Positions 59,124 to 64,000 of a stretch of 64,000 nt of DNA are shown here, one piece after another; the stretch's first letter is position 1, and the number at the start of each line of letters is the position of its first letter. Source of the DNA: Lachnospiraceae bacterium (GTDB lineage Bacteria > Bacillota > Clostridia > Lachnospirales > Lachnospiraceae); assembly GCA_015057025.1 (NCBI GenBank), contig SVFD01000001.1:434001-498000 (forward strand). Reading direction: 5' to 3'. Under the pieces are notes generated by a model. It was not told where the DNA came from, did not search any database, and worked only from the letters and a program-made list of their open reading frames with translations. Both the position numbers and the translations under genes were made by a program.

Positions 59124-60083
59124 ATGTCGAAAAAGAAAAAAATGATTATAGGCAGCGCAGCGGCAGCAGTTGTTGTAATCGGTATTGTTGTAACTCTGCT
59201 TTTGGTTTTTAACAAAGATGAAGCCTACAGAGTCATTAAGGTATTGGAACTTGATGGTAGCGCTGTTGTGGAGCGTGAAAATATCGGAGAATTACAGGCA
59301 TATACAGGTATGACTTTGCAAAGTGGTGATAAAGTAAGTGTTGCGTCAAACAGTATGGTAGTATTGCAGATGGATGATGATAAATATGCGTATATAGAAG
59401 AAAATTCTGTATTATCCATGGTGGCGGAGGGAACTGCAAGAGACAGCAAAACGACAATACAGTTAGAAAAAGGAGCAATCACCTGTCATGTAGACGGTAA
59501 ATTAAATGGCAGTTCATCTTACGAGGTGCATACCCAGAATTCTGTTATGGCTGTTCGCGGAACGGTATTTCGTGTGGCTTTTTACGGTGAAGAACAATTA
59601 TCGGATGATTTTATAAATGATGCAGACGGCGTGGTTCGGGTATCTGTTTATGACGGAGAAGTAATGGTAACACTTAAGAATCCTGATGGAAGTATGGGTG
59701 AAGGAAAGAGTATATATGCCGGTGAGCAGGCAGGTATAGGAAATGATAGTTCCAGTAGCTTTTTCTTAAACGATGTGGATTTAGAAAAACTTCCGGCACC
59801 GGAAAGCAAACGTCAGGTATGGGAAGCATTGCAGGCTATTGTTAATAAAGGAGAAAAAATATCTGCCTCCCAGGAAGAACTCGATAAAATACTGGAAGAG
59901 TTAAACGGGCAAACTGTGTATAAAGTATACTATTATGCAAACGGACAGTTGTTTGCTATTCAGGAAGTAAATTCAGGACAAACAGCCACACAGCCTGATT
60001 TATCACCTTCCGCATCGGGAAGATGGAACATAGATTTTAGTAAAACGATTATGCAAGACACCAATGTGTATTGGGAACAATAA
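59124..60083 (+). CDS. FecR-domain membrane protein
   Basis: A 319-residue single-pass protein: short basic cytoplasmic N-terminus, membrane segment at about 9-29 (IGSAAAAVVVIGIVVTLLLV) and an outer FecR/sensory domain (about residues 40-210: TGMTLQSGDKVSVASNSMVV, VHTQNSVMAVRGTVFRVAFY, VRVSVYDGEVMVTLKN). The C-terminal 90 residues are a small charged extension. FecR proteins often act with ECF sigma factors, but there is none nearby, so it is more likely a structural or sensory surface protein. GGAGGAG precedes the ATG. Confidence 0.78.
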   Translation: MSKKKKMIIGSAAAAVVVIGIVVTLLLVFNKDEAYRVIKVLELDGSAVVERENIGELQAYTGMTLQSGDKVSVASNSMVVLQMDDDKYAYIEENSVLSMVAEGTARDSKTTIQLEKGAITCHVDGKLNGSSSYEVHTQNSVMAVRGTVFRVAFYGEEQLSDDFINDADGVVRVSVYDGEVMVTLKNPDGSMGEGKSIYAGEQAGIGNDSSSSFFLNDVDLEKLPAPESKRQVWEALQAIVNKGEKISASQEELDKILEELNGQTVYKVYYYANGQLFAIQEVNSGQTATQPDLSPSASGRWNIDFSKTIMQDTNVYWEQ

Positions 60084-60101: not shown

Positions 60102-60881
60102 ATGAAAAAGTTATTGATGATTCCGGATAGGTATCATTTGGAAGCAGATGTAGAATTGGCGAAGAAGTATTCATTGGGGTATGAATATAATGATTTTTTT
60201 AATCCGTCTGTATTAGATAATAAAAATGAGCAGGCGGAGATTGTAAAAGGATATCGAGATACTTATTTGCCCCAATATTCAACCCTGCACGGAGCATTCT
60301 TTGATGTGATTCCTTTTAGTTTGGATGAAAAAATCAAAGAGATATCCATGCTCAGAATTGAGCAAAGTATTTCTGCGGCGCAAAAGCTGGGGGCATCAGC
60401 TGTGATTTTTCATACAAACTATAATCCCTTTTTAAATTCTCCTTCGTATATAAATGAATGGATTTCACAAAATGAAAATATATGGAGCGGTATATTGGAT
60501 AAACATCCGGATATTTCCGTTTACCTGGAGAATATGTTTGATACGACGCCGGATATTATGGAAGAGTTATCGTCAAGATTGTGTAGGCACCAAAACTATG
60601 GCGTTTGTCTTGATTATGCTCATGCAGCCTTGTCCAAGGTGGCACCTTTGTGGTGGGCTAAACGTCTTGGTAAATATGTTAAACATGTGCACATCAATGA
60701 CAATGATTTGGTAAGTGATCTTCATCTTGCCTGGGGAGACGGTAAAATAGACCGTCACGTTTTCTATGAAGCATATGAGCAGTATATGAACGGTGCCACT
60801 GTTTTGGTAGAAACGTCTTCGTATGAAAATAAAAAACGCTCTTTAGAAATGCTTGTAAAAGAAGGATTTATATCTGTTTAG
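60102..60881 (+). CDS. TIM-barrel sugar isomerase/epimerase-like protein
   Basis: A 259-residue protein of the xylose isomerase-like/AP endonuclease 2 TIM-barrel superfamily. VIFHTNYNP, VYLENMFDTTP, GVCLDYAHA and HVHINDNDLVSDLH carry the metal-ligand-type His, Glu and Asp residues. It may isomerise a sugar or cyclic polyol. It is the fourth gene of the cluster, 18 bp after the FecR-domain gene. Substrate unknown. Confidence 0.8.
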   Translation: MKKLLMIPDRYHLEADVELAKKYSLGYEYNDFFNPSVLDNKNEQAEIVKGYRDTYLPQYSTLHGAFFDVIPFSLDEKIKEISMLRIEQSISAAQKLGASAVIFHTNYNPFLNSPSYINEWISQNENIWSGILDKHPDISVYLENMFDTTPDIMEELSSRLCRHQNYGVCLDYAHAALSKVAPLWWAKRLGKYVKHVHINDNDLVSDLHLAWGDGKIDRHVFYEAYEQYMNGATVLVETSSYENKKRSLEMLVKEGFISV

Positions 60882-60889
60882 GGATAATA

Positions 60890-60921
60890 AAAAACGTATG
60901 TCGGATTCGGCATGCGTTTTT
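60890..60921 (+). terminator. Terminator after the TIM-barrel gene
   Basis: AAAACGTATG pairs with CATGCGTTTT (one wobble) around TCGGATTCGG, followed by a short T-run. Confidence 0.78.
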
Positions 60922-60935
60922 CTTTGTTCCATAAT

Positions 60936-60987
60936 CGAACAAATATTCGAAAAAATACTTGATAAAACAAACAAATGTTCGTATAAT
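60936..60987 (+). promoter_or_regulatory. Sigma-A promoter with two LexA-like (SOS) boxes
   Basis: TTGATA (60959-60964) and TATAAT (60982-60987) are 17 bases apart. CAAACAAATGTTCG (60968-60981) fills the spacer, and CGAACAAATATTCG (60936-60949) lies just upstream. Both resemble the Firmicute LexA operator (CGAAC, four bases, GTTCG), with one mismatch each by my reading. A LexA dimer on the spacer site would block RNA polymerase. Transcription would begin near 60994. Confidence 0.72.
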
Positions 60988-61010
60988 ATAAAAGAAAAGT
61001 AGAAGAAAGG

Positions 61011-62474
61011 ATGTCCGATTACAATTTTAAGAGTGATTGGATTGTATTTAAATCTATGTATACATTACGTACAGAAATGACAACGGAAGAAAAACTGGAA
61101 ATTTTGGCAGATGCGGCAAAATATGATGTTGCCTGTACTTCCAGTGGTGTAGACCGTAAGGGGAAGAAAGGCGCTTTGGGAAATTGCAGTGCGGCGGGAA
61201 TCTGCCACACTTTTGCTTCGGACGGAAGATGCATTTCGCTGTTGAAGATTCTTATGACAAATCATTGTATTTTTGATTGTAAATATTGTATAAACCGTAA
61301 ATCCAATGATATACCGAGAGCTGTTTTTACACCGAAAGAAATTTGCGAAGTGACCATTGAATTTTATAAAAGAAATTATATTGAAGGATTATTTTTAAGT
61401 TCAGGTATTGTTAAGAGTCCGTCACATACCATGGAACTGATGTGTCAGGTTCTATACCAATTAAGAACGGAATATAAGTTTAACGGTTATATACATATTA
61501 AGGCGATTCCTGGAGTGCCGGATGAATTGATTGCCAAAGCAGGATACCTTGCGGACCGCGTCAGTATTAATATGGAGTTTGCGGCGGAAGAGAGCTTAAA
61601 GAAGTTTGCGCCCAATAAGAATTTTAAAACCATTCTTAATCCCATGGAGAAAATATCCGATACCATAGCATTGCATCGTCTTGCTGTGGGAAAAGATGCA
61701 CGAATGGAGAGAAGTATCGGTAACCGCTACCTTGAAAACAGCATTTTTAATGTTAAAAAGCTGGAAGAACAAGGCATGGGCGGAAAACAGTTGCCGGCGA
61801 ACGTCATAAAAGGCGATTTAAGACGCTCTTTTGCACCTGCCGGGCAAAGTACCCAGATGATTATCGGAGCCGGAGAAGAGAGCGATTATGAGCTTTTACA
61901 GACGACACAACAACTATATCAGCAATATGATTTAAAAAGAGTATTTTATTCGGCATATGTGCCGTTAAATGAGGATGCGTCGTTGCCGGCAATAGGAACT
62001 CCGGTACCTCTATTGCGGGAGCATCGGTTATATCAGGCAGATTGGCTATTGCGTTATTATGGTTTTCAGGCAGATGAATTACTGACACACGAGAAGCCGG
62101 ACTTTAATCCACAGCTGGACCCTAAGTGTGATTGGGCTTTGCGACATTTAAATATATTTCCGGTAGAAATTATGACAGCCTCTTTCGATGTACTTTTACG
62201 GGTGCCGGGCATCGGGCCTACAAGCGCAAAGCGTATTATGCAGTCAAGAAGATACGGAAGTCTTGATTTTATGCATTTAAAGAAAATGGGTGTGGTCTTA
62301 AAGAGAGCGCATTATTTCATTACTTGCGGGGGGAAAATGATGTACAAGATACCTATAGAGGAACAGTATATTACCAAAGAATTAACCGTAGTCAATCGTA
62401 AAGAAAATTGGGAGATTGTGCATCGTAACCAATATCAGCAGATGTCCCTGTTTGATGATTATGCGTTAGGGTAA
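61011..62474 (+). CDS. Radical SAM protein, putative DNA repair/modification (TIGR03916-like)
   Basis: A 487-residue radical SAM enzyme. The [4Fe-4S] motif is C86, C90 and C93 (CIFDCKYC), after KYDVACTSSG with its conserved cysteine and GICHTFASDGRCISLLKILM. The AdoMet barrel covers about residues 78-330. The C-terminus has a helix-hairpin-helix DNA-binding motif at about 394-410 (RVPGIGPTSAKRIM). This matches the family described as putative DNA modification/repair radical SAM protein (TIGR03916). ATG 61011 follows AGAAGAAAGG with almost no spacing, so a slightly later start (61056 or 61077) is possible. It heads an apparent LexA-controlled operon with its usual partner. The reaction is unknown. 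Confidence 0.85.
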   Translation: MSDYNFKSDWIVFKSMYTLRTEMTTEEKLEILADAAKYDVACTSSGVDRKGKKGALGNCSAAGICHTFASDGRCISLLKILMTNHCIFDCKYCINRKSNDIPRAVFTPKEICEVTIEFYKRNYIEGLFLSSGIVKSPSHTMELMCQVLYQLRTEYKFNGYIHIKAIPGVPDELIAKAGYLADRVSINMEFAAEESLKKFAPNKNFKTILNPMEKISDTIALHRLAVGKDARMERSIGNRYLENSIFNVKKLEEQGMGGKQLPANVIKGDLRRSFAPAGQSTQMIIGAGEESDYELLQTTQQLYQQYDLKRVFYSAYVPLNEDASLPAIGTPVPLLREHRLYQADWLLRYYGFQADELLTHEKPDFNPQLDPKCDWALRHLNIFPVEIMTASFDVLLRVPGIGPTSAKRIMQSRRYGSLDFMHLKKMGVVLKRAHYFITCGGKMMYKIPIEEQYITKELTVVNRKENWEIVHRNQYQQMSLFDDYALG

Positions 62475-62504
62475 AAGCGGAGAACTGAAAGACGAGGAGG
62501 AAAA

Positions 62505-63269
62505 ATGTATATTTTTACCTGTCGTCCTGATTATGATTCCATGCTGACATGCATCTATGAAGCGTGGGCGAGTAAAAAAGGACATAAGAATATTAAACTG
62601 TGTTTGGAACCAATAGAACAATATACATTATTTGATGAATACATTCATATAGAACCGGATGAGAAGAAGGCAGAACGGGTCAGTCAATCTGTCTGGCATA
62701 AAATATCACCCCGGGTTTACAGTGAAATGGGGTATGCCCTACTTTCCTTTGAGGAGGATGCTTTGGATATCGTCTATAGGGTATTAATATTGGGCTTTCA
62801 TTTTGGCAGGGATGTCTTGGATATGATACAGTATAGGGAGATAGCAAGATTTCGTGAAATCAGGAAGCTGGTAAGTCGGGAAGTGCATTCGTTTCGGGAG
62901 TTTTTGCGATTTTATAAGGTAGAAGAGAAAGTATATGTGGCACATTTTGAACCCAGAAGTCGTGTACTTATGCCGGTAGCAAGTTATTTTTCAGACCGCA
63001 TGCCTTCTGAACATTGGATGATTATTGATGATATTCACAAGGAAGCGATCGTACATCCGAAGGACGAAACATGTTATTTAAGAATTCTTTCCGATGAAGA
63101 AGCAGAGGCTCTGTCTCACACGGAACAGGAAGACTTTTATACCCGCTTGTGGAGAAATTACTTTCATACTATGGGTATACGTCAGCGTGAGAACAGAGCC
63201 TGTCAAAAAAATCATTTTCCTTTATGGATGCGTAAGCATGTTACGGAGTTTCGGGAAGTGTATGAATAA
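62505..63269 (+). CDS. TIGR03915-type DNA metabolism partner protein (DUF4130-like)
   Basis: A 254-residue soluble protein beginning MYIFTCRPDYDSMLTCIYEA, which matches the TIGR03915/DUF4130 family, found beside TIGR03916 radical SAM proteins and fused to uracil-DNA-glycosylase domains in some Proteobacteria. VHSFREFLRFYKVEEKVYVA, FSDRMPSEHWMIIDDIHKEA and the C-terminal YFHTMGIRQRENRACQKNHF are conserved-looking stretches. It is 30 bp after the radical SAM gene (AGGAGG before the ATG). Likely acts with it on damaged or modified DNA. Its end overlaps the minus-strand GGDEF gene by 29 bp. Confidence 0.83.
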   Translation: MYIFTCRPDYDSMLTCIYEAWASKKGHKNIKLCLEPIEQYTLFDEYIHIEPDEKKAERVSQSVWHKISPRVYSEMGYALLSFEEDALDIVYRVLILGFHFGRDVLDMIQYREIARFREIRKLVSREVHSFREFLRFYKVEEKVYVAHFEPRSRVLMPVASYFSDRMPSEHWMIIDDIHKEAIVHPKDETCYLRILSDEEAEALSHTEQEDFYTRLWRNYFHTMGIRQRENRACQKNHFPLWMRKHVTEFREVYE

Positions 63270-64000
63270 CCCGGTTTCTTCCGTGGGACTTGGCATAATA
63301 TAATTTTTCATCGGCGGATTGTACATTTTCGGCGGTAGTAAGAGCTGCATCCAATTCACTGACACCAAAGCTCATGGTTACTTTAATGTCTAAATCTTCA
63401 AAGTGACATACGGAAGATTCAATGGTTTGACGGCAGTTTTCTGCAAAGGCGGAGGCTTGTGTTAAGTCCTTGTCCGGAAGCAACATAATAAATTCTTCAC
63501 CGCCCCAGCGGAAGATACCGTCATCGATGCCTACAAGGCTTAAATATGTATTTGCCACATGCTTTAAGACGGCATCGCCTGCGTTATGTCCCCAAGTGTC
63601 ATTGACACGTTTGAAATGGTCGATATCGCAGATGATAATGGAAGCTTTTTTTGTCGCAAGGATAGGAACAATAAATTTCTCGTAATGAATATAAAGTCCG
63701 CGACGATTTTTTAAACCGGTAAGCTGGTCTTCCGTAGCCTCGCTGTAAAGCAAATAGGATTCCAATGTTTTTCCGCAAAATGCTGTTGCCAGTTTGATAC
63801 GTTTAATATCTGTTTCATTAAAGGAAGAATCTTTACCGTTTTCATCTAATTTATTGACTGCCTGATATGCGCCGATTACTTTGCCTTCTGAATTTGTAAC
63901 GGGTACTGTAAGAATGGATTTGGTTACATAGCCTGAACTTTTATCTACATCGCTGTTAAAACGCGGATCGTTGTAAGGATCATTGATTACAAGTAACTCG
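63241..64000 (-). CDS. GAF-GGDEF diguanylate cyclase (partial at window edge)
   Basis: The minus-strand frame is open to the window edge. Residues nearest the edge form a GAF-like sensor segment (VINDPYNDPRFNSDVDKSSG, VTVPVTNSEGKVIGAYQAVN-type), followed by a complete GGDEF domain with DQLTGLKNRRGLYIHYEKF, CDIDHFKRVNDTWGHNAGD and the active motif GGEEF. It should make cyclic di-GMP in response to a ligand. A start at 63765 would drop the GAF part, so the true start lies beyond 64000. It is convergent and overlapping with the TIGR03915-type gene by 29 bp, with no terminator between. Confidence 0.85.
   Translation of the reverse strand, partial: ELLVINDPYNDPRFNSDVDKSSGYVTKSILTVPVTNSEGKVIGAYQAVNKLDENGKDSSFNETDIKRIKLATAFCGKTLESYLLYSEATEDQLTGLKNRRGLYIHYEKFIVPILATKKASIIICDIDHFKRVNDTWGHNAGDAVLKHVANTYLSLVGIDDGIFRWGGEEFIMLLPDKDLTQASAFAENCRQTIESSVCHFEDLDIKVTMSFGVSELDAALTTAENVQSADEKLYYAKSHGRNRVIHTLPETP

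Follow-up and report, generated by a model that had tools for sequence, protein, structure and literature searches.

A two-gene radical SAM operon of a Lachnospiraceae bacterium with conserved LexA-type boxes and a predicted clamp-binding tail: a candidate for SOS-induced DNA repair

The stretch of DNA analysed here (the window) comprises 64,000 nucleotides of contig SVFD01000001.1 from a Lachnospiraceae bacterium (assembly GCA_015057025.1), and its positions 60936..63269 hold an operon of two genes which encode a radical S-adenosylmethionine (SAM) protein of the family TIGR03916 and its partner of the family TIGR03915/DUF4130. As a whole, this locus is best explained as an SOS-induced, clamp-tethered two-gene radical DNA repair operon, a reading to which we assign a probability of roughly 60%, because the regulation, the clamp tether, a helix-hairpin-helix (HhH) motif and the partner all point to radical repair that is induced in the SOS response and associated with the replication fork. 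The widespread LexA-type control and the clamp-binding tail would indicate when and where the pair acts, that is, at damaged replication forks, and they make the question of its role directly testable. If this is true, a clamp-tethered radical enzyme would be added to bacterial DNA repair. The family carries the name 'putative DNA modification/repair', and a literature search in a partial collection found no known reaction for it.

The open reading frame (ORF) of the radical SAM protein scored 675.8 bits against TIGR03916 (rSAM_link_UDG; curated cut-off 343.5), and the partner ORF (62505-63269) scored 228.4 bits against TIGR03915 (cut-off 112.25) and 144.2 bits against DUF4130 (Pfam cut-off 27). 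Whether translation begins at 61011 is uncertain, as conservation among the orthologues is first seen near residue 27. The closest named relative among the matches listed is from a Lachnospiraceae bacterium (84% identity); as a member of an already named family the locus is ordinary, and the new, testable point is the clamp motif at the level of the family. The promoter reads TTGATA-17-TATAAT with a spacer of 17 nt, and its hexamers match at 11 of 12 positions. Box 1 ends 9 bp upstream of the -35 hexamer, box 2 occupies the spacer, and each deviates from CGAAC-N4-GTTCG by one mismatch. An earlier note, made from the letters of the window, had described just this arrangement, namely an exact 17-bp promoter with one LexA-like box in the spacer and one just upstream which drives only two genes, a radical SAM protein with an HhH motif and its known partner. 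The coordinates of promoter and boxes were confirmed, both families lie over their curated cut-offs, and the HhH motif is present, though under the Pfam cut-off.

Conservation was assessed in several sets of loci. The own-family sample, drawn from the family of the host, comprises 150 genomes, with TIGR03916 found in 91 and over the cut-off in 87; 84 loci were used, the window's genome, two partial genes, a second partial piece in one genome and sub-cut-off matches having been dropped. The set from other families of the phylum has 45 loci, 44 places over the cut-off and one just below, with the own genome, a second partial piece and weaker matches left out. The named set holds the best 80 of 590 confirmed stretches and overlaps with the own-family set, so that the two are not independent. 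The plasmid set consists of 14 regions (158 records had a match, 40 were listed, and a Eubacterium eligens locus was kept out), 12 of them proteobacterial (nine alpha, two beta and one from Acinetobacter) and the others from Parabacteroides and Gemmatirosa. An alignment of 220 proteins was derived from 225 loci minus five that were short or broken.

The boxes upstream of the pair are strongly supported by their conservation as LexA-type operators, and LexA control of the operon can be regarded as almost certain on this sequence evidence. No third site of this kind occurs in the window. At least two sites also occurred in 15 of 100 shuffles of the window; therefore, the window alone is no proof of the boxes, which conservation supplies. 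When the upstream regions of clostridial TIGR03916 orthologues were compared, the check proposed in the earlier note, at least one box (up to one mismatch, -200 to +60 of the expected start) was present at 82/84 own-family loci, at least two boxes at 67/84 and an exact box at 42/84. By comparison, 11 permuted palindromes were found at 2-16 of the 84 loci, with two sites at one locus at most, after dinucleotide shuffling of the upstream stretches a box was seen at 6.5 loci on average and at no more than 12, and the true pattern occurred inside the gene at nine loci. The 158 sites (window included) yield the consensus (C/A)GAACATATGTTC(G/T). The spacing of the last two boxes is 25-32 or 55-61 bp for 42 of 68 distances (window included), and these preferred distances suggest that the operators of the own-family loci are phased. 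A box was likewise present at 68 of the 80 named loci (permuted forms 1-12) and at 32 of 44 loci from other families of the phylum (permuted forms 0-15). In Alphaproteobacteria, the gene is preceded at all nine loci by an exact GAAC-N7-GAAC (against 0-1 of nine for eleven permuted forms), which we take to be the LexA box form of that class, and both betaproteobacterial loci carry an exact CTGT-N8-ACAG (permuted forms, none); the alpha and beta boxes are all exact, and none is more than some 40 bp from the start. The LexA box forms of E. coli and B. subtilis are given in the consulted part of PMC4234289.

In the host genome, a single lexA match has, some 120 bp upstream, an exact GAAC-N4-GTTC. 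There are at least 13 such exact sites, which precede, among others, recA and genes for polymerase IV-like (Y-family), sbcD-like and DinG-type helicase-like proteins; lexA and recA lie over their curated cut-offs, the polymerase IV-, sbcD- and DinG-like genes below theirs. Box 2 differs by one base from GAACAAATGTTC, the box found both at recA and at the polymerase IV-like gene. The proposed SOS/LexA control of the operon is strongly supported by the operators at 82 of 84 orthologous loci, by the same box at the host lexA and recA and by the clade-specific boxes in the Proteobacteria sampled. Several other exact host sites are located inside or beside ordinary genes. One further exact box stands before a membrane-protein-like ORF without NCBIfam match (L009 1501-1512) and another in an intergenic region (L006 1501-1512), and it is possible that these mark new SOS genes of the host.

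LexA control of the pair is supported, yet it is not new, as it has been predicted for relatives before, a point absent from the earlier note; among these we count COG4277, presumably the same protein family as TIGR03916. In Bacteroidetes, LexA-type regulation was predicted for COG4277-COG1573, with Verrucomicrobia and Alphaproteobacteria cited, in passages of PMC8565304 which view this operon as a uracil-DNA glycosylase (UDG) or uracil-based base excision repair system; the partner described there carries a UDG domain, whereas the window partner has none. For Clostridium acetobutylicum, LexA control of CAC3343-CAC3344 was already predicted (PMC3828012). By its description, this pair matches that of the window; the work concerns one species, and its passages on the pair contain no survey of relatives, clamp motif or mechanism. 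Another radical SAM protein, vnz_31145 of Streptomyces, known here by its description alone, belongs to a LexA regulon (PMC9380542).

The second line of evidence is the C-terminus of the radical SAM protein, through which it very probably binds the beta sliding clamp. QL[SD]LF is a clamp-binding consensus, and the motif at the end of PolC has the same role. In an alignment of 33 orthologues, the tail is loose apart from Q(L/M)SLF close to its end, in which a Gln and a Leu are invariant, and across the 220 aligned proteins the motif consists of Gln at position 477 (218 proteins), Leu, Met or Ile at 478 (213), Ser at 479 (185), Leu at 480 (185) and Phe at 481 (196). The host PolC ends with NQMSLFDFV and the host radical SAM protein with QMSLFDDYALG, so that two otherwise unrelated enzymes have the QMSLF tether in common. 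Among the PolC ends of related genomes the motif is found in 26 of 28 (30 genomes, two without a usable end; one sequence not readable to its end and one altered tail were scored as misses), and in 14 it is identical to that of the radical SAM protein of the same genome; the host polymerase IV-like protein carries QINMF. A first motif pattern was matched by 78/84 own-family, 63/80 named, 10/14 plasmid and 15/45 other-family tails. A broad pattern, devised once the tails of this first count had been inspected, occurs in the last 50 residues of 83/84, 76/80, 14/14 and 43/45 proteins of the same sets (shuffle means 9.0, 9.5, 1.4 and 4.2) and in 216 of 223 orthologues overall, and a strict pattern occurs in 69/84, 56/80, 10/14 and 17/45 (shuffle means up to 0.23). 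Proteobacterial tails show QLSLF, QLALF, QLSLL and similar motifs, often as the final residues, and the Parabacteroides protein ends with RQLILPFID. The motif is rare in the partner proteins (strict form 2/83; broad form in the last 50 residues 6/83), and the tether is therefore placed on the radical SAM subunit. In the partial collection searched, no paper joins a clamp-binding motif with radical SAM proteins, and none was found for TIGR03916 or for UdgX with radical SAM.

Apart from the radical SAM cluster motif, three further cysteines of the protein are near-invariant in the 220-protein alignment (Cys42, 219; Cys65, 218; Cys74, 219), as is His66 (99%), while Cys439 (87%) and Cys373 (66%) are not universal. 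This conservation suggests that Cys42, Cys65 and Cys74 together with His66 form an auxiliary cluster or provide hydrogen-donating cysteines. When a profile of the 33 orthologues was compared with solved structures, the relatives found by sequence were only HhH proteins, a ComEA-related one at E 4e-4 and weakly Topoisomerase V (0.1) and RuvA (0.4), plus weak radical SAM and other matches.

The TIGR03915 partner is regularly adjacent to the radical SAM gene, at 83/84 own-family, 80/80 named, 40/45 other-family and 13/14 plasmid-set loci; at the one own-family locus without a downstream partner just 14 bp remain after the gene. For TIGR03915, the comparison by sequence found no solved relatives. 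The partner model resembles the folds of DHH/DHHA1 phosphoesterases (PAP phosphatase 8a8k, RecJ and Cdc45); the DHH metal motif, invariant in the reference set of these proteins, is absent from the invariant columns of TIGR03915. Homology by sequence was also considered and rejected, as a profile comparison with 14 DHH-DHHA1 stretches gave a probability of 0.2%, and therefore only a resemblance of fold is claimed.

It might thus be proposed that LexA occupies the two operators and keeps the promoter blocked until DNA damage leads to RecA filaments and LexA cleavage, by which the promoter would be released. The C-terminal QLSLF-type motif would then hold TIGR03916 on the beta sliding clamp at replication forks or fresh gaps, where its HhH motif may contact DNA and a 5'-deoxyadenosyl radical might reverse or remodel a base or sugar lesion that blocks replication (perhaps, as the earlier note suggested, one beyond spore photoproduct), probably assisted by a second metal site from Cys42, Cys65 and Cys74. 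TIGR03915 would enter a complex with it as DNA-binding or targeting subunit, with a DHH-like fold but no metal-binding DHH signature; at 11 of the 12 proteobacterial loci sampled it is fused to UdgX, a protein that covalently captures uracil-derived abasic sites. That the pair has a role in DNA damage, as the earlier note had it, is highly likely from the regulation, the partner context and the clamp-binding motif. The larger picture is held more tentatively, at slightly worse than even odds: a widespread replisome-coupled radical repair machine with a polymerase-type clamp tag, a second metal site, a metal-less DHH (Cdc45-like) partner, LexA control in at least three lineages via different operators, and a chemistry distinct from that of spore photoproduct lyase.

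Several observations weigh against this interpretation. Both the lesion and the chemistry are guesses, and lesion reversal as the chemistry is one that we consider somewhat more likely wrong than right. The one-mismatch box pattern is not enriched across the host genome (531 sites versus 913 in a reversed control), and single weak sites therefore mean little. Thirteen of the 45 other-family loci either showed no box or had an upstream sequence that was too short, a search for six types of box at the Acinetobacter locus found none, and the sites at the Parabacteroides locus (a single GGA-N5-TCC at -211) and the Gemmatirosa locus (two one-mismatch sites beyond -100) are unconvincing. The term 'radical' does not occur in the consulted part of the C. 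difficile LexA regulon study (PMC4234289), the presence of the pair in this species not having been examined. The clamp motif is short, and we infer clamp binding from its resemblance to known motifs; the broad pattern is missing in 7 of 223 orthologues and also occurs within 43 of 220 protein bodies, the strict one within 1 of 220. TM-scores of the partner model against 8a8k are only 0.33-0.42, which is low. In addition, the distribution of the pair is patchy, with matches over the cut-off in 87/150 genomes of the family and 45/199 of the phylum, and the sole genome of the same genus in the first sample lacks it.

Of the other explanations, a uracil or abasic-site pathway survives best, even if it is unlikely. 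The pair would act on uracil, on abasic sites or on the covalent UdgX-DNA adduct, with UdgX as the sensor in Proteobacteria and TIGR03915 alone in that role elsewhere. UdgX is fused to TIGR03915 at 11 of the 14 plasmid-set loci (11 of the 12 proteobacterial ones), and the UdgX domains of two fused partners that were scanned reach 326.5 and 339.5 bits against TIGR03914. The UdgX hallmarks, which are GEQPG, a basic loop with His and an HPS-type motif according to the consulted part of PMC10359453, can be made out, slightly varied, in the five fused partners inspected, and the treatment of the operon as uracil-based base excision repair in passages of PMC8565304 speaks for the same view. In one fused partner (L238), however, the loop pattern is unmatched, and no fusion to a UDG domain was seen at the 84 own-family, 80 named and 45 other-family loci of the phylum. 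The window operon lacks UdgX: in the NCBIfam scan its partner matched only TIGR03915 and no UDG domain, and neither of two UDG-fold genes of the host genome lies beside the pair. An Acinetobacter baumannii plasmid record has the radical SAM gene together with a partner without UdgX, and no box was found there; the radical SAM gene also occurs in at least ten records of a phage collection, two of them annotated with a radical SAM gene.

Direct reversal of a UV photoproduct, which would make the pair a functional analogue of spore photoproduct lyase, is less probable still. SplB (COG1533) is SOS-regulated in several species, according to passages of PMC8565304. The window pair would resemble it in combining predicted radical SAM DNA repair and a DNA-binding motif with SOS control. 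To our knowledge, however, the extra cysteines, the DUF4130/UdgX partner and the clamp motif, which belong to the TIGR03916 system, are not features of SplB. Moreover, TIGR03916 was the only NCBIfam match up to E 0.001, in a library without TIGR00620, a model for SplB, and many carriers are, judging from record titles, gut bacteria that are seldom exposed to UV. A programmed DNA modification instead of repair, such as a base modification induced by damage or a part in defence, is permitted by the NCBI family name, and the Agrobacterium locus has a toxin gene of the AbiEii type in its vicinity. We regard this as very improbable, given the LexA-type operators in several lineages and the clamp tag; a search with the PADLOC defence models gave no match for either of the two proteins up to E 0.01, and beyond the AbiEii gene no defence or methylase annotation was seen in the annotated neighbourhoods examined. 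That the boxes are chance palindromes or sites of another regulator, as the window shuffles and the missing genome-wide enrichment might suggest, can practically be dismissed in view of the 82/84 orthologous loci and of three LexA-type box forms before the same gene across clades.

Table 1. Positions of the operon's genes, sites and protein motifs in the window.
Feature	Position	Strand	Evidence
Terminator-like hairpin behind the upstream gene	60890..60921	+	hairpin scan
LexA box 1, CGAACAAATATTCG	60936..60949	+	pattern match; orthologue conservation
-35 hexamer TTGATA	60959..60964	+	promoter scan
LexA box 2, CAAACAAATGTTCG, within the promoter spacer, reaching the -10 hexamer	60968..60981	+	pattern match; orthologue conservation
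-10 hexamer TATAAT	60982..60987	+	promoter scan
TIGR03916 radical SAM protein, 487 aa	61011..62474	+	NCBIfam and Pfam profile scans
Codons Cys42 to Cys74 (Cys42, Cys65, Cys74 and His66, outside the radical SAM motif)	61134..61232	+	alignment
CX3CX2C radical SAM cluster motif, Cys86/90/93	61266..61289	+	220/220 aligned; Radical_SAM match
Helix-hairpin-helix motif, aa 384-414	62160..62252	+	Pfam match, 22.6 bits, under the cut-off of 27
QMSLF, predicted beta-sliding-clamp-binding motif, aa 477-481	62439..62453	+	alignment, pattern counts, PolC comparison
TIGR03915/DUF4130 partner, 254 aa, DHH-like predicted fold	62505..63269	+	profile scans, fold comparison

The downstream neighbour of the operon is a convergent diguanylate cyclase gene (GGDEF; 63241-63999, complement strand) which is cut by the window end. 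From this gene and the hairpin behind the upstream gene it follows that the transcription unit consists of two genes, in agreement with the earlier description. The upstream gene (60102-60881), which ends before the hairpin, encodes a TIM-barrel protein of the sugar isomerase/AP endonuclease-2 type with weak similarity to the cobamide phosphodiesterase CbiR and to deoxyribonuclease IV (below the NCBIfam cut-offs), and it does not seem to be connected with the operon. The second gene ahead of the operon (59124-60083) encodes a FecR-domain protein.

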